Below, in pieces: positions 44,779 through 55,527 of a stretch of 64,000 nucleotides of DNA. Within the stretch, counting starts at the first letter, position 1. The number at the start of each line of letters is the position of its first letter. The notes beneath the pieces are model-generated. The model saw only the letters and a list, made by a program, of their open reading frames with translations. It was not told the DNA's origin and did not search any database. A program made the translations under genes and the position numbers. Where the stretch lies: contig NZ_JARRAF010000015.1 of the NCBI RefSeq assembly GCF_030129945.1, positions 1 to 64,000 on the forward strand, written 5' to 3'. This stretch comes from Parachitinimonas caeni. Its GTDB lineage: Bacteria > Pseudomonadota > Gammaproteobacteria > Burkholderiales > Chitinimonadaceae.

Positions 44779-45306
44779 ATGAAAAATATCCTGCTGGTAA
44801 TTTTTGCTGCACTGACGGTGGCCTTGCCGGCAATGGCCAAGCCCTATTCCTTGCCCGGAACTGGTATTCATTTTGATGCCCCCGAAGGCTTTACCGCCAT
44901 GACGGCAAAAGAAATCGCCGTCAAATTTCCCGTCGCCAATCCGCCTGCGACAGTGGTCGCCAATAAGGCCCGCACGGTTACGATTGCGTATGAAGTGAGG
45001 CCACAAGCCCTGCCGGTTGAGATGCTGGAAACCGCTTTGGGTGCTTTTGAGAAGGCTTTCGAGCAAAGCGTGCCAGGGCTGGAGTGGAAAGCCCGTAAGG
45101 TGATTGCATTGCAAGATAGAAAATGGATCCAGCTGGAATTTATTTCAAACCGGGATGGTGTTGATATTTATAACATCATGCTGATCACGCCGTTTGACCA
45201 GAAAATGCTGGCATTCAATTTTAATTCCATCCGTCATGAATTTTCCAAAATAGAGCCTGCATTGCGAAAAAGCATGCAAACTATTGTTTTGCCAGAAAAT
45301 AAATGA
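44779..45306 (+). CDS. secreted protein of unknown function
   Basis: 175 residues from the ATG at 44779 (the frame is open to 44767). Signal peptide MKNILLVIFAALTVALPAMA. The mature part (YSLPGTGIHFDAPEGFTAMT ... KWIQLEFISNRDGVDIYNIM) looks like a small alpha/beta domain of the kind found in PsbP/DcrB-like envelope proteins. Its stop overlaps the ADP-ribosylglycohydrolase start by four bases (ATGA), so the two are translated together. AT-rich sequence before it suggests its own promoter. Confidence 0.7.
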   Translation: MKNILLVIFAALTVALPAMAKPYSLPGTGIHFDAPEGFTAMTAKEIAVKFPVANPPATVVANKARTVTIAYEVRPQALPVEMLETALGAFEKAFEQSVPGLEWKARKVIALQDRKWIQLEFISNRDGVDIYNIMLITPFDQKMLAFNFNSIRHEFSKIEPALRKSMQTIVLPENK

Positions 45307-46214
45307 GCTTTTCCAATTTGCAAAATCGCTTCCGGGGCTGTCTGCTTGGTCTGGCCTGTGGCGATGCTGTCGGCACTACGGTTGAGTTTTCCCCGCGCGG
45401 CAGTTTCGAGCCAGTACGGGATATGGTTGGCGGTGGCCCGTTCAATCTGCCAGCCGGTGCCTGGACTGACGACACGTCTATGGCGCTGTGTCTGGCGCAT
45501 AGCCTGCTGCATTGCCAGGGATTTGATGCGCGAGACCAGATGAATCGCTATACCAACTGGCAACAGCATGGCTATATGAGCAGTACCGGTAGCTGCTTTG
45601 ATATCGGCGTGACGATAGCGCGGGCCCTGCAGCGGTATCAGCTTTCCGGCAACCCGTTTGCGGGGGTGCCCGACCCACGTCAGGCCGGCAATGGCAGTCT
45701 GATGCGACTGGCGCCCGTGGTGCTCTACTACTTCGATCAGCCTGATCAGCTGCCCGGCATGGCAGCGGAGAGTGCCCGCACTACACATGGCGCCGAGGAA
45801 GTGCTGGCGGCAACACGCCTGTTTGCCCGGCAGTTACGCGCTGCGCTGGCTGGTCAGAGCAAGGATGCCATCGTGCAGGGGCTACAGGATGAGCCGTGCC
45901 CACCCAAAGTGGCGGCCTTGGCCCGAGGCGACTGGCGCGACAAGGCCGAGAGCGAGATCAAGGGCAGTGGGTATGTCATGGAATCGCTCGAAGCGGCGCT
46001 TTGGTGCTTCTGGCATACCGACAGCTTCGAGGCGGCGATCCTGCGCGCGGCCAATCTGGGGGATGACGCAGACACCACGGCCGCCATCTGCGGTCAGCTG
46101 GCGGGCGCTTACTATGGCGTCGAAGCGATTCCACTGCCCTGGCGGCAGCGGCTGGTGATGGCGCAGGAAATCACCGCCCTGGCCGATCAGCTGCTGGCGC
46201 AGCGCAGACATTGA
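45303..46214 (+). CDS. ADP-ribosylglycohydrolase (DraG/ARH family)
   Basis: 303 residues, cytosolic. The di-magnesium site motifs are intact: GLACGDAVGTTVEF (residues 16-29), AWTDDTSMALCLAH near 53, NGSLMRLAPV near 123, and LGDDADTTAAICGQLAGAYYG near 258. Such enzymes remove ADP-ribose from proteins, nucleic acids or small molecules. It overlaps the preceding secreted-protein gene and is followed after 13 bases (with AAGGA) by the HEAT/ARM gene, so it reads as part of the same transcript as the retron locus. Whether it belongs to the defence function is inference. Confidence 0.92.
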   Translation: MSFSNLQNRFRGCLLGLACGDAVGTTVEFSPRGSFEPVRDMVGGGPFNLPAGAWTDDTSMALCLAHSLLHCQGFDARDQMNRYTNWQQHGYMSSTGSCFDIGVTIARALQRYQLSGNPFAGVPDPRQAGNGSLMRLAPVVLYYFDQPDQLPGMAAESARTTHGAEEVLAATRLFARQLRAALAGQSKDAIVQGLQDEPCPPKVAALARGDWRDKAESEIKGSGYVMESLEAALWCFWHTDSFEAAILRAANLGDDADTTAAICGQLAGAYYGVEAIPLPWRQRLVMAQEITALADQLLAQRRH

Positions 46215-46227
46215 ACAAGGATCAAGC

Positions 46228-49200
46228 ATGAACCACCGCGCAGACCTCTTGCTGCTGCATCGGCCGGGTACGGAAGGGGGCAATTTGCGCCTCTGTCTGG
46301 AGGCGGAACCCGCCGGCCTTGTCGGATTGAGACTGATGTGGCAGCCGGCCGGGCAAGACTGGCAGGATCTTCACTATTTCGGCGGCTTGCCGGACCGCAG
46401 TGCCGCTGAAACCCTGGCCCAGAAGTTGGCCATGCAGAAACAGACGGACGGGTTTTTGATGGCAGGGCAGACGGTGCCTGCCGTTGAGCCCACTGCGCTG
46501 AGCCTTGGCGAGGCGAGGCAAGCCCGCTTGCTGAGCCGATTGCAGGCCGATGACTGGCGTTTGCTCGCACCCGGCAAACGGACGCGGCTGGTATGGCAGA
46601 TCGGTGAATTGCGGCTGAAGCCAGCCGTACCCCGGTTGGTTACCTTGCTGGAATCCGGCGATGACCGGCTCGACTATTGTCTGGCGTGGGCGATTGGCCG
46701 GTGTGGCGATACCGGCGCCCGTGACGCCATGCACCATCTGGCGCAGCGCGGTCGTTCCGAGGCGACCCGGCGACTGGCGCGGTGGGCCGAACTGGCGCTG
46801 TCCGACTCCGCCGAACGGGATGCCTGGGCTGAGCGTCTGATCGCCGATTGGCCAGCCACCCTGCGCGAAGCCTGGGCCACGCCCTCGATGACACACATCG
46901 ACGCAGTTCTCTCCGAACTGGCGAGCCAGAAGTCATTCAAGGTTGCCGACTGGCTGGAGCAGTTGGATGAAGTCGCCCAATGCCAGCCAACCGCCCGACC
47001 CGTCTTGCTGGCGCAGCTGGCGGATATGCCCTTGGCTGCTGGTAACTTCCGGGCGCTGCGCCACCTCTACAAGGCTGCCGAGTTCCGGGGGGATGCGGAC
47101 ATCTGGGCCTTGCTGCAGCATCGGTTTGAGCAAACGGGCCACAATTTCTACTATGCCTACCCCAATCAATCGGTTTACCTGGGCCGCAAGTGGGTAAAAG
47201 TCTGCGACGAGTTACCGCGCAGCGACAGCCGACTGGCGTATTCCAACCGCACCCGCAACTACCTGTTACGCCGGGGTTGGCGCAGTCTGCGACGGCTTGG
47301 CGCCTATGGCAGCCCGGAATTTGCCCCCCTGGCCTATGCGGCACTCCGTAGTTTTGACGATGCCAGCGCCCCGGCCCATCAGGTGACCGTTTCAACCTGG
47401 GATCGCGGTTACAGAACACATATCGAATACCGGCATGCCCATGCGCGTTCCCCCTTGTTCAACCGCTTGCTGTTCCGGCCGGATGGCCCGATCCACTTCC
47501 GGCGAAATGGTGCGCCTGCCTATGCCCTGAGCCTGCTGCCGGCACAACGGCCTGAACGCTATGAACCCTATGCCAAGCTATGGGATACCCGGCCAGATTT
47601 GCTGCTGCAGCTGGCACTGGCCAGCCATGCCGAGTGGGTGCAGGCGTTTGCCGTGCGGGCGCTGGCTGATCTGCCGGCCTATTGCGCCCGGATGCAGGAC
47701 GTGCATTGGCGCAGCCTGTTGGGAAGCCCGTTCGCAGTGACAGCGACATTTGCCAGCCAGCACATCACCCGTCTGCTGGCTGCCGAGACGTCGCCCCTGC
47801 AGCGCGAACCCTGGCTGGTGCTGCTGCTGGGCAGTCGTCACGCCGAGGTGGTGCAGGCCGGGCTGGCCCTGTTCGAGCAGGATCCGGCAGCATACGCCCA
47901 CAGCACACCGCTGGTGGTAGGGGTGCTGACCGCACGCCATGCCGAGGTCAGGCGCCACGCCCGCCTGATCTGCCAGGTGGCGGCAGCCGATTCCGCTGTG
48001 GCCGGGCAGATTGTCACGCAGCTGCTTGAATGGCTGACATTGGCCGACACGCTCACCGAGTCGCTGGAGGCCATTGTCGAAAACATCGGCTGGGCTGTCG
48101 CCCAACCCTTGCGGCAGGCTGCTGCGCTGGCCGACTACCCGGCCCTGTTGGCGCTGACTGACCACACGCTGCTGGCAGTGCGTTGCCTGGCCGTGGATTG
48201 GCTGATTCTGCATCAACAACCCGTGCAGACCTTGCCACCCACCTTGTTCCGGCAGTTGCTGGAGAGTGACGAGCCGCGTCTGCTCGCTGCCGGGCTGCGC
48301 CTGTTGGCGGCGATGCCCTTGCCCCTGCTGCTGGCCCAGGCCGAGCTGGTGGGCATGTTCTGCGTTTCACCGCACACAGTCGTGCGCGAGCAGGCGCTCC
48401 TGACTGTAGAAAAGCTGCTGACACATGATCCGGCCTTCGCCAATGCCCTGCTGCCGAAGCTGCTGTCGGTGTTGTATCGCACCGAGCAGGCTCCCGGCAT
48501 GCATGATGCGATTCACGGCTTTCTCACCCAGACGCTTGCATCGGCCTGCCAGAATCTGCCAGTCACCCACATCCTGAGCCTGTTGCAGGCGCGAAGCACC
48601 GCTGCACAGCGTTTTGGGGCATGGCTGCTGCCGCAATGGCCGGATGAGAGCCTGTCGGTAGCCGACTGGGTGTCGCTGGCGCGTTGTGATACCCAGGATG
48701 TGCGCCAACGTGCCATGGCGGTGCTCGACCGTCTGTTTGCCGGGCTGGCCCCGGCGACCCTGCTGCCGATTCTCGATGGGCGCTGGGACGATAGCCGGCA
48801 GCAGCTCCTGAGCTGGCTGGCGCAGCGCGTGCCCAATCGGCAGTGGCAGACAACCGAACTGATCACCCTGGCCGACCATGCCAACCCCTCGGTGCAGGCA
48901 TTTGGTTGTGCCCAGCTCGCTACCCGTCTGGCTGAAGGCCAGGATGCGGATTGCCTGCTGGCGCTGGCCGAACACCCTTCGCTGGCCGTGCAGGGCTTCG
49001 TTGCCCACTGGCTGCAAACCGTGCTCAGCCAGCATCCCGAGCGATTGCCGCAGTTTGCTGCTTACTTCCGGCTGGTGTTGTCGCAGGTCAACAAGGGGCG
49101 GCAGATCAAGCGCACTTTGCATGCGCTGCTGCGGCAGCAGGCCATGCATTCCGAAGCGCTGGCGCGGGAAGTGGCGAGTCTGTTCGAGTGGCTGGCTGTG

Positions 49201-49320
49201 ACGGTGGCCATTGGCGACAAGGCCCAGTATGTGGCGGGCCTGTATGAAATCCGCCGACGTTTTCCCGGTATCGAAACACGCCTGACGATTGCGGCACCGG
49301 CGGTGCGAGGGGAGGGATAA
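46228..49320 (+). CDS. large HEAT/ARM-repeat protein of the retron locus
   Basis: 1030 residues, soluble. A short beta-rich N-terminus (1-90) is followed by alpha-helical repeats to the end, for example LRLKPAVPRLVTLLESGDDR near 130 and many Leu/Ala-rich helix pairs with HAEV and DVRQRA turns between 500 and 900. A conserved central motif reads YLLRRGWRSLRRLG near 345. No catalytic site was recognised, so it is probably a scaffold or recognition subunit. The stop overlaps the next start (TAATG). ARM-repeat plus WHSWIM proteins accompany clade-9 reverse transcriptases in type XIII retrons as I recall that scheme. Confidence 0.85.
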   Translation: MNHRADLLLLHRPGTEGGNLRLCLEAEPAGLVGLRLMWQPAGQDWQDLHYFGGLPDRSAAETLAQKLAMQKQTDGFLMAGQTVPAVEPTALSLGEARQARLLSRLQADDWRLLAPGKRTRLVWQIGELRLKPAVPRLVTLLESGDDRLDYCLAWAIGRCGDTGARDAMHHLAQRGRSEATRRLARWAELALSDSAERDAWAERLIADWPATLREAWATPSMTHIDAVLSELASQKSFKVADWLEQLDEVAQCQPTARPVLLAQLADMPLAAGNFRALRHLYKAAEFRGDADIWALLQHRFEQTGHNFYYAYPNQSVYLGRKWVKVCDELPRSDSRLAYSNRTRNYLLRRGWRSLRRLGAYGSPEFAPLAYAALRSFDDASAPAHQVTVSTWDRGYRTHIEYRHAHARSPLFNRLLFRPDGPIHFRRNGAPAYALSLLPAQRPERYEPYAKLWDTRPDLLLQLALASHAEWVQAFAVRALADLPAYCARMQDVHWRSLLGSPFAVTATFASQHITRLLAAETSPLQREPWLVLLLGSRHAEVVQAGLALFEQDPAAYAHSTPLVVGVLTARHAEVRRHARLICQVAAADSAVAGQIVTQLLEWLTLADTLTESLEAIVENIGWAVAQPLRQAAALADYPALLALTDHTLLAVRCLAVDWLILHQQPVQTLPPTLFRQLLESDEPRLLAAGLRLLAAMPLPLLLAQAELVGMFCVSPHTVVREQALLTVEKLLTHDPAFANALLPKLLSVLYRTEQAPGMHDAIHGFLTQTLASACQNLPVTHILSLLQARSTAAQRFGAWLLPQWPDESLSVADWVSLARCDTQDVRQRAMAVLDRLFAGLAPATLLPILDGRWDDSRQQLLSWLAQRVPNRQWQTTELITLADHANPSVQAFGCAQLATRLAEGQDADCLLALAEHPSLAVQGFVAHWLQTVLSQHPERLPQFAAYFRLVLSQVNKGRQIKRTLHALLRQQAMHSEALAREVASLFEWLAVTVAIGDKAQYVAGLYEIRRRFPGIETRLTIAAPAVRGEG

Positions 49321-50972
49321 TGCAGTTCGAGTACCGCTATTACGGTGAAAGCCAGGTGCGCCACGATGATCAGGGCACCGGCATCAGCTTTGCCCCCGAC
49401 ACCCTGCGCCAACCCGTGCACTTTGTTGCCGACATCAGCCGCCATCTGCCTTTTCGCGAGGCCATATCGGCCTTGCACGATGTGGTGGTGTCGGATTTGC
49501 GCACCAAGCAAAGGGATGTCAGCGCCTACAAAGCGTGGCTGGCGGGGCAGGAACAGGTGATGCTGGCCGAGTTCATGGCGCAGGCGTCATCGCTGCGAGG
49601 ACAGGTGGAAGCGCTCAGCCAGCAGATCGCCGAGGTACGCACACAGCGCGTGGCTATGCAGGCCCCTTATCTGAAAGCCAAACAGCGCTATTTCAACCAT
49701 ATCTACCAACACAACCGCGACCTCTGGTTTGTGTTGGACCCGGTGATCACCGTCCACCCGGATAGGGTGTTCTTCGAGTGCTTCAGCCAGGATGAATCAA
49801 CCTACGCCAACTTCAGTTGCGGTCACGAGATGTTCAGCCATCACGGCGACTTTGCCTGTGGCACCACCAATATTGATTACTCGGCGCCGCTGTATGCCGA
49901 GTTCCAGAAAATCCGCCAGTACAAGCCCACCCGGCTGACCGTGGAGCCGGCCGGCTTTACCGTGCAGACCGGTGTCGATGACGGTTTCGTCGAGGAAAAA
50001 ATCGACTTGCCCGAAAGCTGGGTTCGGGGCTTTTTGCAGGTCAGCGCTGCGATGGCCTTGCCGGGCCGGCGTCTGCAGCTGCACCCGATGGATTTGCATA
50101 ACTTCTGCCTGATTCTGCGCTGGCGCAAGGAACGGGTCGGCCCCCGTTCGATCCGCTTCGAGCTGGTGCCGGGTCAGCCGGTCAAGGCGGTGTTCGAACC
50201 CTGGGGGCAGGAGGTAGTCTGCCTACGCTCCAGCCACGATGCGCCAGCGGCCGAGAGCATCCGCATCTGGGGGCGTCGTCGCCTGCTGACGCTGGAGCGG
50301 CTGACAGGGGTGGCCGAGCGGGTGCAGGTGCATCTGCTGGGCACCGGCCTGCCTAGCTTCTGGATGGTCTCTGGCGCCGACTGGCAGTACACGCTGGGCC
50401 TATCTGGCTGGACGGCGAACGACTGGTCGCGCAATGGACAGTTTGATCTGTTCGGCCCGCGCCAGCAGGTTGATACCGCGACCCAGGCGCAGGTATTCCA
50501 GGCCCTTGCGAGTGATTACAAGGCGACCGCTGCGCAGCTTGGCCTGCGCCTTGGCCTGCAGCCATCGCTGGTTGAGTCGAGCCTGCTGGCGTACACCCAG
50601 GCCGGGCGGGTGGTTTACGACTTGGCTGATGGCTGCTATCGCCTGCGCGAATTGTCTCGCGAGCCGCTGCCGCTTGAACGCCTGCGCTTTTGCAATGAGC
50701 GGGAAGAGCAGGCCTCGCAGCTGGTGTCGCGAGGCAAGGTCAAGGGCCTGAGCATCAGCGCCAGCGACGCGGGCCGGCAGATCTCGGCACAGCTGCAGGA
50801 TGGCGATCGTCGCCATGGCGTGACTTTGCAGATCGACCTTGATGAGCGCATGGCGGCGGCCCGTTGTGATTGCGACTACTACGTCCACAACAAGCTGTAT
50901 CGAGGGCCGTGCGCGCACATTCTGGCAGCACGCATGGCGGCCGACCTGCAGGCGCGCCAGCAGCGTGGCTGA
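49320..50972 (+). CDS. winged-helix SWIM zinc-finger protein (WHSWIM)
   Basis: 550 residues. The N-terminal third contains a coiled segment (about 75-130). A winged-helix-like region lies near 400-445 (AAQLGLRLGLQPSLVESSLL, AGRVVYDLADGCYRL). The C-terminus holds a SWIM zinc finger with ligands C516, C518, C531 and H533 (CDCDYYV...GPCAHI). SWIM fingers bind DNA or protein. Translation is coupled to the HEAT/ARM gene through a 1-base overlap with a strong GGGAGG site. The retron RNA and reverse transcriptase follow, so it is probably the nucleic-acid-sensing or effector-control part. Confidence 0.88.
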   Translation: MQFEYRYYGESQVRHDDQGTGISFAPDTLRQPVHFVADISRHLPFREAISALHDVVVSDLRTKQRDVSAYKAWLAGQEQVMLAEFMAQASSLRGQVEALSQQIAEVRTQRVAMQAPYLKAKQRYFNHIYQHNRDLWFVLDPVITVHPDRVFFECFSQDESTYANFSCGHEMFSHHGDFACGTTNIDYSAPLYAEFQKIRQYKPTRLTVEPAGFTVQTGVDDGFVEEKIDLPESWVRGFLQVSAAMALPGRRLQLHPMDLHNFCLILRWRKERVGPRSIRFELVPGQPVKAVFEPWGQEVVCLRSSHDAPAAESIRIWGRRRLLTLERLTGVAERVQVHLLGTGLPSFWMVSGADWQYTLGLSGWTANDWSRNGQFDLFGPRQQVDTATQAQVFQALASDYKATAAQLGLRLGLQPSLVESSLLAYTQAGRVVYDLADGCYRLRELSREPLPLERLRFCNEREEQASQLVSRGKVKGLSISASDAGRQISAQLQDGDRRHGVTLQIDLDERMAAARCDCDYYVHNKLYRGPCAHILAARMAADLQARQQRG

Positions 50973-51083
50973 GCGCAGGCTCGATACCCAGGGCAACCAA
51001 ACCGAACTTTTGATTGAGGAGATCACGCCGGGTTGTTAGACTCGGGAATGTGTGAATTTGCCACAGCAGCTGTGGCAGATTCT

Positions 51084-51094
51084 GGGTGGCAGGG
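51084..51094 (+). repeat. retron a1 arm
   Basis: GGGTGGCAGGG, the exact reverse complement of 51288-51298. It pairs with a2 to bring the msr and msd ends together for priming by the reverse transcriptase. Confidence 0.8.
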
Positions 51095-51173
51095 AGGCTC
51101 TTGCAACCCGGACGGTGGATCGCCGTCCTTGTACCAAGCTCTCCCACGCGCCACTGGCCCGCTCTTCACTGGG

Positions 51174-51243
51174 CCGGGGCTCCCTACCTGCTGCATGACG
51201 GTGTGGCTTGTTCCAAGCCCGATGCAGCAGGTAGGGGCCCCGG
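51174..51243 (+). other. msd-like long stem-loop
   Basis: Arms CCGGGGC-T-CCCTACCTGCTGCAT and its complement pair over 22 bp with one bulged T; the cap is a second hairpin. Long stems like this are the reverse-transcribed core of retrons and the template for msDNA. Confidence 0.8.
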
Positions 51244-51287
51244 CTTTCGAGTGGAGCGGTCCAGTCTACAAGGCTCTTCGATGAGAA

Positions 51288-51298
51288 CCCTGCCACCC
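51288..51298 (+). repeat. retron a2 arm
   Basis: CCCTGCCACCC, 35 bases before the reverse transcriptase start codon, complementary to a1 at 51084-51094. Confidence 0.8.
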
Positions 51299-51332
51299 GC
51301 ACACTCCCGCCTCCGCTATCCGGCTTGCCATC

Positions 51333-53207
51333 ATGAGCAACGCCACCCCTACCAGCCGTGAAGCCGTTCTCGCCCGCATTCAGGCCAGCAGCAAAGAAGA
51401 AGTCATTCTTGAAGAAATGCAGCGCCAGGGATTCTGGTCTGCCGATGCGGCCGCCCCCGAGCAAGCCAAACTGACCGAGCTGATGCAGCAAGAGCACACG
51501 CTGCTGCGTGAGCTGAGTGCGTTGAATGAACAGCTGCGGCTCGCCAGCGATCCGGAAGCTGCCCTGCAGGCCATGCGCAAGCAACGCATGGCCGATGCCA
51601 AGGCGCGGCGTGAAGAAACCCGGCAGAGAGCCGCCCAGCGCCGTCACCAGAAAGCCTTGGCTTGGCACGCCCTGAGCGGCAGGGAGATTTTTTACCTGGG
51701 CGAAGGCGTGTCGCAGGGGTTGGCCGATGGCCGGCTGGATGCCGACAGACTCATCGCCAAAGGGCTGCCGGTGCTGGAGGGGCCGCTGGCCCTGGCGACG
51801 GCCATGGACATCCCCCTGCCGGAGTTACGCTTCCTGGCCTTTCAGCGCAGCGTCTCGCGCATCAGCCATTACCGCCGATTCGGCCTTCCAAAAAAAACAG
51901 GGGGCTTGCGGCTGATTTCCGCACCCATGCCCAGACTGAAACGTGCCCAGTACTGGGTGCTCGACAATATTCTGGCCAAGCTGCCGGTGAGTGAGGCCGC
52001 ACACGGATTCGTACCGGGGCGGTCCATCGTCAGCAATGCCGCGCCCCATGTTGGGCAGGCCGTGGTCGTTAACTTCGACCTCAAGGATTTTTTCCCGTCA
52101 ATCCGCTACCAGCGGGTACGTGGCCTGTTCCAGTCGTTTGGCTATTCACGCCAGCTGGCAACGGTGCTGGGACTGCTCACCACCGAGTTGCCGACCGAAG
52201 CAGTGGAGATCGACGGCATGTGCTTTCAGGTGCAGAGCGGTGAGCGACATCTGCCGCAGGGGGCGCCATCGAGCCCGGCCATCACCAATCTGCTATGCCG
52301 ACGTCTGGATAGGCGTCTGTCTGCGCTGGCGCAGCGGCTGGGTTTTCGCTACAGCCGCTATGCCGACGATATGACATTTTCTGCTGACGCGGCAGGCGCC
52401 GCGAATCTGCCGCGCCTGCTGTGGCAGGCCAAACGGGTGATTGCCGATGAGGGATTCGTGCTGCACCCGGACAAACAGCGCGTTATGCGTGCCAGCTCAA
52501 GGCAGGAAGTGACGGGTGTCGTGGTCAATCACCATGCAACCGTGTGCCGTGCCACCTTGCGTCGTTTTCGAGCGACCTTGCATCAGGTCGAGAAAGACGG
52601 CCCGCCGGGCAAGAGCTGGCATGGGAATCCCGATGTGCTGAATGCGCTGGCCGGTTATGCCCGGTTTGTGCGGATGGTCGATCCGGCCAAGGGTGACCTC
52701 ATGTGCCGTCAGGTGGCGCTGTTGCAAGCCCGTTGGGGCGGGGCGCCAGCCCGGACGCATGGCGACTATTTCCGTCGGTTCCGCGCCGCCAGCGCAGCCG
52801 GTCAAGCCTTGCCGGGCAAGATCCAGCTGGCCAAGCCCAAAGCCGCACCTCAGCTCGAAAAGACGGCCATCCAGCTGCAGAAAGCCAAGGAAACGGTTGC
52901 TTCGGCAGCCACGCTTACCGTTGATCCGACCCTTGATGCGGCTAGTCAGCCGGCGGTTCCGCCGCCCCAGGTAGCGCAGGCCGAGGCACCTGCGGCAAAC
53001 CCCCACGAGGCGATGCCTGCCTCGCTATACGTGAATCTGGCGGTGCAGTTTGTGCTGATGCTGGTGGGGGGCATGTTGTCCGGCAATCTGTTGCTGCTAT
53101 TCGGCAGCGCTGGCTGGGCCTGGTATGCGATGAACAGTCGCAAGGCCAGTTGGTGGGTCTGGCTGGGCGTGGTGGTGGTGTGCCGCTTGCTTTGGCGAAT
53201 GCGATAG
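51333..53207 (+). CDS. retron reverse transcriptase with C-terminal membrane helices
   Basis: 624 residues. An N-terminal extension (1-115) contains a charged coiled coil. The RT core has the retron motif NAAPH (235-239, NAxxH), the motif A aspartate in NFDLKDFF (D249), LPQGAPSSP (307-315), the catalytic YADD (343-346), and VTG (393-395) in the retron-specific Y region. After about 490 comes an Ala/Pro/Lys linker, then two membrane helices (about 566-592 and 606-621) ending RLLWRMR. The extension and helices make it much longer than typical retron RTs of 300-400 residues. Should copy the upstream msd RNA into msDNA. No clear ribosome-binding site. Confidence 0.93.
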   Translation: MSNATPTSREAVLARIQASSKEEVILEEMQRQGFWSADAAAPEQAKLTELMQQEHTLLRELSALNEQLRLASDPEAALQAMRKQRMADAKARREETRQRAAQRRHQKALAWHALSGREIFYLGEGVSQGLADGRLDADRLIAKGLPVLEGPLALATAMDIPLPELRFLAFQRSVSRISHYRRFGLPKKTGGLRLISAPMPRLKRAQYWVLDNILAKLPVSEAAHGFVPGRSIVSNAAPHVGQAVVVNFDLKDFFPSIRYQRVRGLFQSFGYSRQLATVLGLLTTELPTEAVEIDGMCFQVQSGERHLPQGAPSSPAITNLLCRRLDRRLSALAQRLGFRYSRYADDMTFSADAAGAANLPRLLWQAKRVIADEGFVLHPDKQRVMRASSRQEVTGVVVNHHATVCRATLRRFRATLHQVEKDGPPGKSWHGNPDVLNALAGYARFVRMVDPAKGDLMCRQVALLQARWGGAPARTHGDYFRRFRAASAAGQALPGKIQLAKPKAAPQLEKTAIQLQKAKETVASAATLTVDPTLDAASQPAVPPPQVAQAEAPAANPHEAMPASLYVNLAVQFVLMLVGGMLSGNLLLLFGSAGWAWYAMNSRKASWWVWLGVVVVCRLLWRMR

Positions 53208-54594: not shown

Positions 54595-55182
54595 TTATTC
54601 TTTGTAGACGATATCAATGGCCAACCCTGCGGCCAGTAATAGCATGGAAATGTTTTTATCGGCCTGATCGGGCAGGGCGATTACATAGTTATCCGCTGAA
54701 GTAAATAGTTCTTTGCCGACGCCGGCCCATTTTTTGGTAACACTGCCAATTTCCTTTTCGTTTTTATCCAGTAATTGGAAGTTCCAGCCTTTCCAGTCGC
54801 CTTTGATTTGTGCGACTTGATTGTCTGCCGTATCAAATACCATAAAGGAAGGGCCAATTGAAATCAGCTTGCTTTTAAAGTAACCAATCTTGTTACCCTG
54901 GCGGTCGAGAATTTCCACTTTGGGTCGGATCAGTGAAAAGCGACGTTTGATGCTGAATAACCGTTTGCTGTCATTTTCATGGCTGTCGCCCTCAAAGACA
55001 TTGACGGTGGTGGGGAGCATGCGTTTATTGACAATCAGCCGCAGCACATGAATCAAAGCCCCCGGTTTTTCTTTGGCAATTCCCAGCTGTGCCTGAGTGG
55101 CCGGATCGAGAATATCGTAGGTGTCGGATAGTTTGAGCATTCCTACATGCTCACGAATAAAAAAAGTGGTTCTATTGAACAT
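54595..55182 (-). CDS. LURP-one-related / phospholipid scramblase-like protein
   Basis: 195 residues from the ATG at 55182 (the frame is open to 55233). No signal peptide. The beta-strand pattern with FFIREHVGMLKLSDTYDI at the start, FSIKRRFSLIRPKVEILDRQG and VFDTADNQVAQIKGDWKGWNF in the middle, and a hydrophobic C-terminal helix (NISMLLLAAGLAIDIVY) is that of the LURP-one/Tubby-like barrel with its buried helix. Lipid or membrane binding is suspected in relatives; not proven. AT-richer than its neighbours. Confidence 0.75.
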   Translation of the reverse strand: MFNRTTFFIREHVGMLKLSDTYDILDPATQAQLGIAKEKPGALIHVLRLIVNKRMLPTTVNVFEGDSHENDSKRLFSIKRRFSLIRPKVEILDRQGNKIGYFKSKLISIGPSFMVFDTADNQVAQIKGDWKGWNFQLLDKNEKEIGSVTKKWAGVGKELFTSADNYVIALPDQADKNISMLLLAAGLAIDIVYKE

Positions 55183-55527
55183 GAATGATTCTTCCTGATA
55201 AGGATAATGCGGATTCTGTTTGGATAAGCGCACAATAAAGTTAATACACGAACTGAAAAAGGTTTTTCAAACAGCTCTTATGCGTCAATGATGTGTGTTG
55301 AGAATTTACGACTTTAGCATATTTAATGAATTGACCGAAACCCGTCAGGCAGATGGGGAGCAATCGTTGTGACGGGGGTTTACCAGGTGGGACTGCTGGT
55401 CAAACATCGCTGAAATCGTCTAGGCTGAAACGGGAGGTCCGCGTTATTGCGGCAAATGCAGGTTCTTTCCATGAGGACTAACCTGAGGCGGAATGCGGGC
55501 AAATATAAGATGTGCGAGGAATTGATA
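55183..55527. other. AT-rich divergent intergenic region
   Basis: 345 bases between the LURP-like gene and the mutarotase gene. It should carry promoters in both directions. A possible longer N-terminus of the mutarotase (from 55447) is not supported by a ribosome-binding site. No operator or RNA was recognised. Confidence 0.45.

Follow-up and report, generated by a model that had tools for sequence, protein, structure and literature searches.

A probable msr-msd RNA of a type XIII retron in Parachitinimonas caeni

A locus with three type XIII protein profiles

The window, meaning the whole stretch of 64,000 nt from Parachitinimonas caeni that was analysed (contig NZ_JARRAF010000015.1, to which all coordinates refer), contains three adjacent genes whose best PADLOC profiles are WGR_XIII, SWIM_XIII and RT_XIII:

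46228-49320, plus strand: WGR/HEAT-repeat protein of 1030 aa, retron partner (WGR_XIII, E 6.2e-234; the match begins at residue 57)
49320-50972, plus strand: SWIM zinc-finger protein of 550 aa, retron partner (SWIM_XIII, E 3.2e-214)
51333-53207, plus strand: retron reverse transcriptase (RT) of 624 aa (RT_XIII, E 1.6e-180)

The stop of the WGR/HEAT gene overlaps the start of the SWIM gene. For the RT, the second-best PADLOC profile is RT_other with an E-value of 4.4e-101. Pfam recognises RVT_1 in the RT and a SWIM zinc finger in the SWIM protein (E 4.3e-4); HEAT_2 stayed under the cut-off. Because RT_XIII, SWIM_XIII and WGR_XIII match three adjacent genes, the locus is assigned to the type XIII retrons of PADLOC-DB, with which it shares the three protein profiles in one neighbourhood and an RNA beside the RT. 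Retrons make small RNA-linked DNAs and are thought to protect bacteria from viruses. The retron classification of Mestre et al. in 2020 is said to name 13 types. Within the literature covered, which leaves out much of the field, the sole mention of type XIII retrons was a passing PADLOC label in PMC11953036; the PADLOC web server is described as employing msr-msd covariance models (PMC9252829).

The RT carries the motifs NAxxH (residues 235-239), YADD (343-346) and VTG (393-395), which all 27 aligned RTs share without variation and which are described as retron RT motifs in PMC6868368. Its nearest solved structures by sequence are chains of the retron Ec86 RT. When an AlphaFold2 model of the RT (mean pLDDT 87.4) was compared with known folds by Foldseek, rows 1 to 18 were all chains of retron entries, rank 19 was a group II intron RT, and the first DRT entry appeared only at rank 24. 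Among solved structures, retron Eco1 (Ec86) thus comes closest to the RT in sequence and in fold, and it has the same a1/a2, msr and msd layout. This likeness rests on the RT and the RNA layout, not on the RNA sequence, and the partners differ: the Eco1 accessory protein is assigned to a predicted NDT/DNA-binding family in PMC8989520, whereas the window encodes SWIM and WGR/HEAT proteins. The AlphaFold2 model of the WGR/HEAT protein combines an N-terminal beta domain with a long alpha-solenoid, and its PDB matches, among the rows listed, are general HEAT-type proteins with TM-scores of at most 0.28. In neither of the two partner proteins was an enzyme domain recognised.

An ADP-ribosylglycohydrolase gene (45303-46214) lies 13 nt before the WGR/HEAT gene. 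It was considered as a conserved operon member and rejected, since tblastn gave no match in the DNA available for 81 related loci, which for L004 and the short contigs extends little to the upstream side. A gene for a Scramblase / LURP-one-related protein is located near the retron on the minus strand (54595-55233).

The RNA element and its conservation

An earlier note on this DNA had placed a series of nested inverted repeats between the SWIM gene and the RT gene, and the interval between 50972 and 51333 does contain the following elements:

51014-51042, plus strand: promoter-like block, TTGAGG, a 17-nt spacer and TAGACT preceded by TG, identified by eye
51054-51082, plus strand: 5' leader hairpin, GAATTTGCCACAGC/GCTGTGGCAGATTC, repeat I3, outside a1/a2
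51084-51094, plus strand: a1 arm, GGGTGGCAGGG, an 11-bp perfect complement of 51288-51298 that covaries in relatives
51100-51104, plus strand: near-invariant CUUGC, from sequence conservation
51110-51128, plus strand: msr hairpin of 8 bp, 51110-51117 with 51121-51128
51153-51265, plus strand: msd hairpin, expected to be reverse-transcribed; repeat I1 with 44-nt arms, 73% complementary
51153-51157 with 51261-51265, plus strand: msd basal stem, from RNA fold and consensus structure
about 51172-51196 with 51222-51247, plus strand: msd long stem, from RNA fold and consensus structure
51205-51219, plus strand: apical hairpin at the tip of the msd
51279-51283, plus strand: conserved CGATG just before a2, CGAAG in most other copies
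51288-51298, plus strand: a2 arm, CCCTGCCACCC, a perfect complement of a1 that covaries in relatives

The density of complementarity had been described as unexpected for ordinary intergenic sequence, and thermodynamic folding, which had been proposed as a check, agrees. The minimum free energy of 51040-51310 is -163.3 kcal/mol, compared to -110.3 (sd 5.8) in dinucleotide shuffles (z -9.22), and none of 200 shuffles was as low. The segment 51084-51298 alone gave a z of -9.3 (60 shuffles), and the exact span 51060-51298, which cuts the 5' hairpin, gave -7.2. As a local control, 146 random 239-nt stretches of the window had a mean z of -0.79 and a minimum of -5.1, with two at or below -5 (30 shuffles each). 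The 11-bp a1/a2 pair can be read directly in the sequence as perfect and falls inside inverted repeat I2. The 22-bp msd-like stem is borne out in its length (51174-51196 with 51222-51243) but not in its perfection, because T51181 is bulged, also in the computed fold. As for the three short hairpins, which by our own reading are those at 51110-51128, 51205-51219 and 51054-51082, the first two are parts of the element, but the third is located upstream of a1.

This near-perfect 5' hairpin separates the promoter-like block from a1 and is missing from the four nearest relatives, which were aligned here (L004, L033, L034, L036); judged by this alignment, it is not part of the RNA family. It was also rejected as a genomic repeat family: 6 places matched with at most 3 mismatches, two of them the hairpin itself on either strand, and a control pattern matched at 1. 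The promoter-like block aligns in the window and four relatives, and TAGACT or TACACT, preceded by TG, is present in all five. A consensus scan reported neither promoter nor terminator, the block being under the scan threshold. A further complementarity, 51028-51040 with 51099-51111 (I4), overlies the block, is not kept in L036 and was taken as chance.

At the gathering score, Rfam 15 has no match in the 64-kb stretch; for 50950-51400, only miRNA hairpin models appeared, below their gathering scores, and the RNA of 10 homologous loci gave no Rfam match either. The description as previously unannotated holds with respect to Rfam 15, which has no family for the RNA, but type XIII is already a named kind of retron, and the msr-msd covariance models of PADLOC may cover this RNA. 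A covariance model located one copy in the host's own 5.65-Mb assembly, at 51072-51315.

Related loci were collected by a scan of contigs that used the RT as query, from which the best 80 of 331 confirmed relatives were retained; L004 brought the set to 81, and L005 and L006 were left out because they seem to duplicate L034 and L035. The RNA was searched by nhmmer, seeded by the window RNA alone and iterated over the 700 bases before each RT. Immediately before the RT, 74 of the 81 loci contain the RNA. Their hosts, by record title, include Proteobacteria, Bacteroidota, Planctomycetota, Campylobacterota and Aquificota. The remaining seven loci gave no RNA match. L047, L049 and L091 have merely 205, 75 and 347 bases before the RT, and L102 looks truncated. 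In L106, L107 and L110, the SWIM stop lies 10-21 nt before the RT start, and neither the model, applied to the whole loci, nor folding of some flanks revealed a clear candidate for a displaced RNA. Because SWIM abuts the RT in these three loci, a type XIII-like RT can lack the RNA at this place. In L107, a large hairpin followed by a T-run is present upstream of the HEAT gene.

Of the 81 loci, 72 have a SWIM match and 69 a HEAT match. No SWIM match was obtained in nine loci, eight of them contigs of less than 9 kb; the ninth, L080, has the RNA, the RT and full flanks, yet neither a SWIM nor a HEAT match. In seven loci (L085, L094, L096, L099, L101, L103, L104), SWIM and/or HEAT are encoded downstream of the RT. 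As the RNA is still located just 5' of the RT there, it goes with the RT and not with the partners. Two RNAs precede a single RT in L052, L078, L081, L050, L037 and L058, and three do so in L057; the extra pieces in L037 and L057 are partial, and the count is a lower bound because 26 loci were searched whole by the model. The copies before one RT are 52-91% identical.

Among 100 genomes including that of P. caeni, scanned with strict filters, the RNA model matched four (G000, G006, G007, G040), whose sequences were used in model training or are near-identical to those used. These are exactly the four with a strong RT (E below 1e-200). Where the RT is more distant, for example in G014, G016 and G046, the RNA model had no match. 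The plasmid search returned one partial match, from Methylobacterium. None of the phage records covered 80% of the RT among 8 of 56 matching records, and the Phytobacter RNA had no match in E. coli genomes.

The earlier note had named the lack of compensatory substitutions in homologues as the observation that would speak against it; instead, the a1/a2, msr and msd stems keep their pairing through double changes. Alignment A1, made with MAFFT, comprises 38 sequences picked for variety from 80 nhmmer matches and leaves out Chitinophaga-type and Flavobacterium copies, near-duplicates and the weakest copies. Its RNAalifold consensus contains 43 pairs, 34 of which have double changes (26.7 in shuffles). 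The fraction of paired cells is 88.8% compared to 67.2% in shuffles, the number of double-change cells 379 compared to 124.4, and the covariation score 0.573 compared to 0.191; for each of these four measures, none of 500 shuffles was as high. Further pair types numbered 100 compared to 92.0, a value that 15 of 500 shuffles reached. When the partners are shifted by 1 to 3 columns, pairing falls to 34-46%, a comparison that favours the true over the slid versions because the consensus structure was derived from A1 itself. In A1, the msr hairpin is paired in 99.0% of cells, with double changes in 4 of 8 pairs, and the three long msd helices are paired in 78-82%; the lower msd value is put down in part to MAFFT misregistering the variable arms.

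Since a1/a2 is absent from the A1 structure, it was analysed by duplex energies and by group alignments. The energies cover 76 copies, as four of the 80 matches were dropped in which no CTTGC was located. The 76 true pairs, many of them from copies closely related to each other, have a mean of -25.6 kcal/mol, compared to -11.6 when copies with dissimilar a1 arms were swapped (5038 swaps). For the window's own duplex (-32.7 kcal/mol), 1 of 75 swaps was at least as stable; by this measure, L070 (19/75), L096 (10/74) and L085 (5/74) were the weakest cases. The group to which the window belongs (6 rows, of which 5 are distinct) has 12 a1/a2 pairs, with 95% of cells paired and double changes in 7 pairs; the five measures were attained in 0 to 6 of 500 shuffles. 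An alphaproteobacterial set (n=11) has the same layout including a1/a2, with double changes in 25 of 82 pairs.

Priming site, proposed mechanism and other explanations

The predicted fold has the layout of a retron RNA, with 11-bp complementary ends that close it, an msr hairpin and one long msd hairpin; retron RNA ends are described as complementary over about 8-30 bases (PMC6868368). On these grounds, 51084-51298 is very probably the msr-msd non-coding RNA of a type XIII retron. Against this count the seven loci that gave no RNA match and an invariant G whose context differs from those listed for retrons.

In retrons, the priming G is described as sitting where the a1/a2 stem ends on its inner side, most often in the context TAGC and also in CAGA, CAGC, GAGC and ACGC (PMC6868368). 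The branch G had been predicted at 51096 or 51097, but these positions are not conserved, with a G in 33 and 51 of 76 copies, respectively. Positions 51100-51103 are CUUG and G51103 is a G in 76 of 76 copies, and 51104 is a C in 75; the CTTGC anchor was placed by string in 28 of the 76 rows, so that the invariance is independent in 48. CTTGC is also invariant in all 38 rows of A1, none of which is among the 28 string-anchored ones. In six of the 76 copies, the 5 nt upstream contain no G. In the alphaproteobacterial set, CCUU forms a helix with the AAGG adjacent to a2, which leaves the G at the helix end; in the window, the corresponding CCUU/AAGG helix would carry a U-U mismatch. The position of G51103 fits a priming G, but its context, CUUGC, is outside the listed retron contexts. 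The known priming context GAGC directly precedes CTTGC in 8 of 76 copies, not including the window, and this lowers our estimate for G51103. On balance, we slightly favour G51103 as the best candidate for the priming (2'-5' branch) guanosine, an assignment that draws on sequence conservation. At the other end, C, G, A and the last G of CGATG are invariant in the 38 aligned sequences, and this element is likely the start of the template, at about C51279/G51280.

These assignments would be compatible with the following course of events. The RNA would probably be transcribed from a promoter near 51014-51042, and pairing of a1 and a2 would close the fold. The RT would bind the msr and prime cDNA synthesis from the 2'-OH of a conserved G by the a1/a2 stem, which is likelier to be G51103 than 51096/51097. 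It would copy the msd backwards from about 51279-51280 to a cDNA end near 51140-51160, which would result in a branched RNA-DNA molecule whose DNA part measures about 120-140 nt. Judging from other retrons, the locus may function in defence, with the RT-msDNA complex restraining or positioning the WGR/HEAT and SWIM proteins until phage disturbance.

Other explanations of the element were weighed against this assignment. The RNA could be a scaffold or template for non-retron DNA synthesis (concatemeric, protein-primed or untemplated), similar to DRT2 or DRT9. The absence of a CUUGC priming context from the retron list in PMC6868368 would suit this explanation, and the branched msDNA of 51084-51298 is itself a prediction, but the RT shows the NAxxH and VTG motifs of retrons, retron RTs rank as its nearest folds and DRT entries begin at rank 24, and a closing a1/a2 pair combined with an msr hairpin and one long msd hairpin is how retrons are laid out. 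We consider it very unlikely. Less probable still is an ordinary structured 5' UTR, attenuator or terminator that regulates the RT gene in cis. The RNA is indeed located 34 nt upstream of the RT start and has strong hairpins, but no terminator-like site was found, the distance from CTTGC to the conserved 3' end stays at 182 to 208 nt in 76 copies, and two or three copies precede one RT in 7 loci. Covariation across several helices together with a distal a1/a2, and conserved unpaired CUUGC and CGA.G, also argue against regulation in cis. A palindromic repeat (REP- or IS-like) with complementarity unrelated to the RT has a negligible probability, because, although such genomes often contain GC-rich inverted repeats, the RNA model finds a single copy in the 5.65-Mb assembly, a DNA comparison finds no match except the element itself and its own reverse complement, and the RNA accompanies the RT in several phyla.

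The C-terminal tail of the reverse transcriptase

Beyond its assignment to a type XIII retron with an msr-msd RNA, the locus has a further feature that distinguishes the window's RT within the type XIII retrons, namely a predicted three-helix hydrophobic tail:

53019-53204, plus strand: hydrophobic C-terminal tail of the RT, residues 563-624, from AlphaFold2 model and hydropathy

The tail is located beyond the RT_XIII match, which ends at residue 501. In the model, residues 534-556 have a pLDDT below 50 and are followed by helices at 563-583, 586-602 and 607-623. Defined by a 19-residue Kyte-Doolittle mean of at least 1.6, a hydrophobic, transmembrane-like tail is present in the window and in 18 of 81 relatives, all 18 of them Proteobacteria by record title, with L004 counted in as a member of the window's order. 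The tail is missing in six of the 24 proteobacterial relatives, two of which have short or unusual ORFs. The two Phytobacter RTs differ, as L044 has the tail and L043 does not. RT ends that contain WW, such as KPWWKFW, were observed in 45 of the 81 relatives, none of them Proteobacteria; the RT of L095 ends with WF only and has no WW. Amphipathic helices as a feature of the RT tails were rejected, because for five of the ten sequences tested, between 122 and 909 of 1000 shuffles attained the observed value; for the five Campylobacterota RT tails, 4 to 47 of 1000 did so.

Predicted membrane helices in a retron system are shared with the Eco6 type, in which, however, the accessory protein has the two transmembrane helices (PMC8989520), whereas in the window the RT itself has the hydrophobic tail. 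The transmembrane proteins of retrons that are described in PMC8989520 and PMC13405049 are accessory or effector proteins. Among the retron records listed by a full-text search, with a coverage that leaves out most subscription papers, none showed a transmembrane part in the RT.

Hydrophobic or tryptophan-rich RT ends could tether type XIII RTs to the membrane. That type XIII retrons act at the membrane, to which the RT, as the enzyme that produces and keeps hold of the msDNA, would be anchored by its C-terminal tail, is a tentative proposal that we rate as rather unlikely, and our estimate was lowered because the two Phytobacter RTs differ in their tails. Since no enzyme domain was recognised in the partners, the tail may belong to the effector or may set the sensor at the envelope. 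Alternatively, the RT tails may dock onto partner proteins.

The alignment yields an RNA model supported by covariation, a testable priming site, and homologues across several phyla that include loci with two or three RNAs per RT. For type XIII, the more interesting question is that of the RT tail, and this material suffices to ask whether type XIII retrons make msDNA and whether they act at the membrane.
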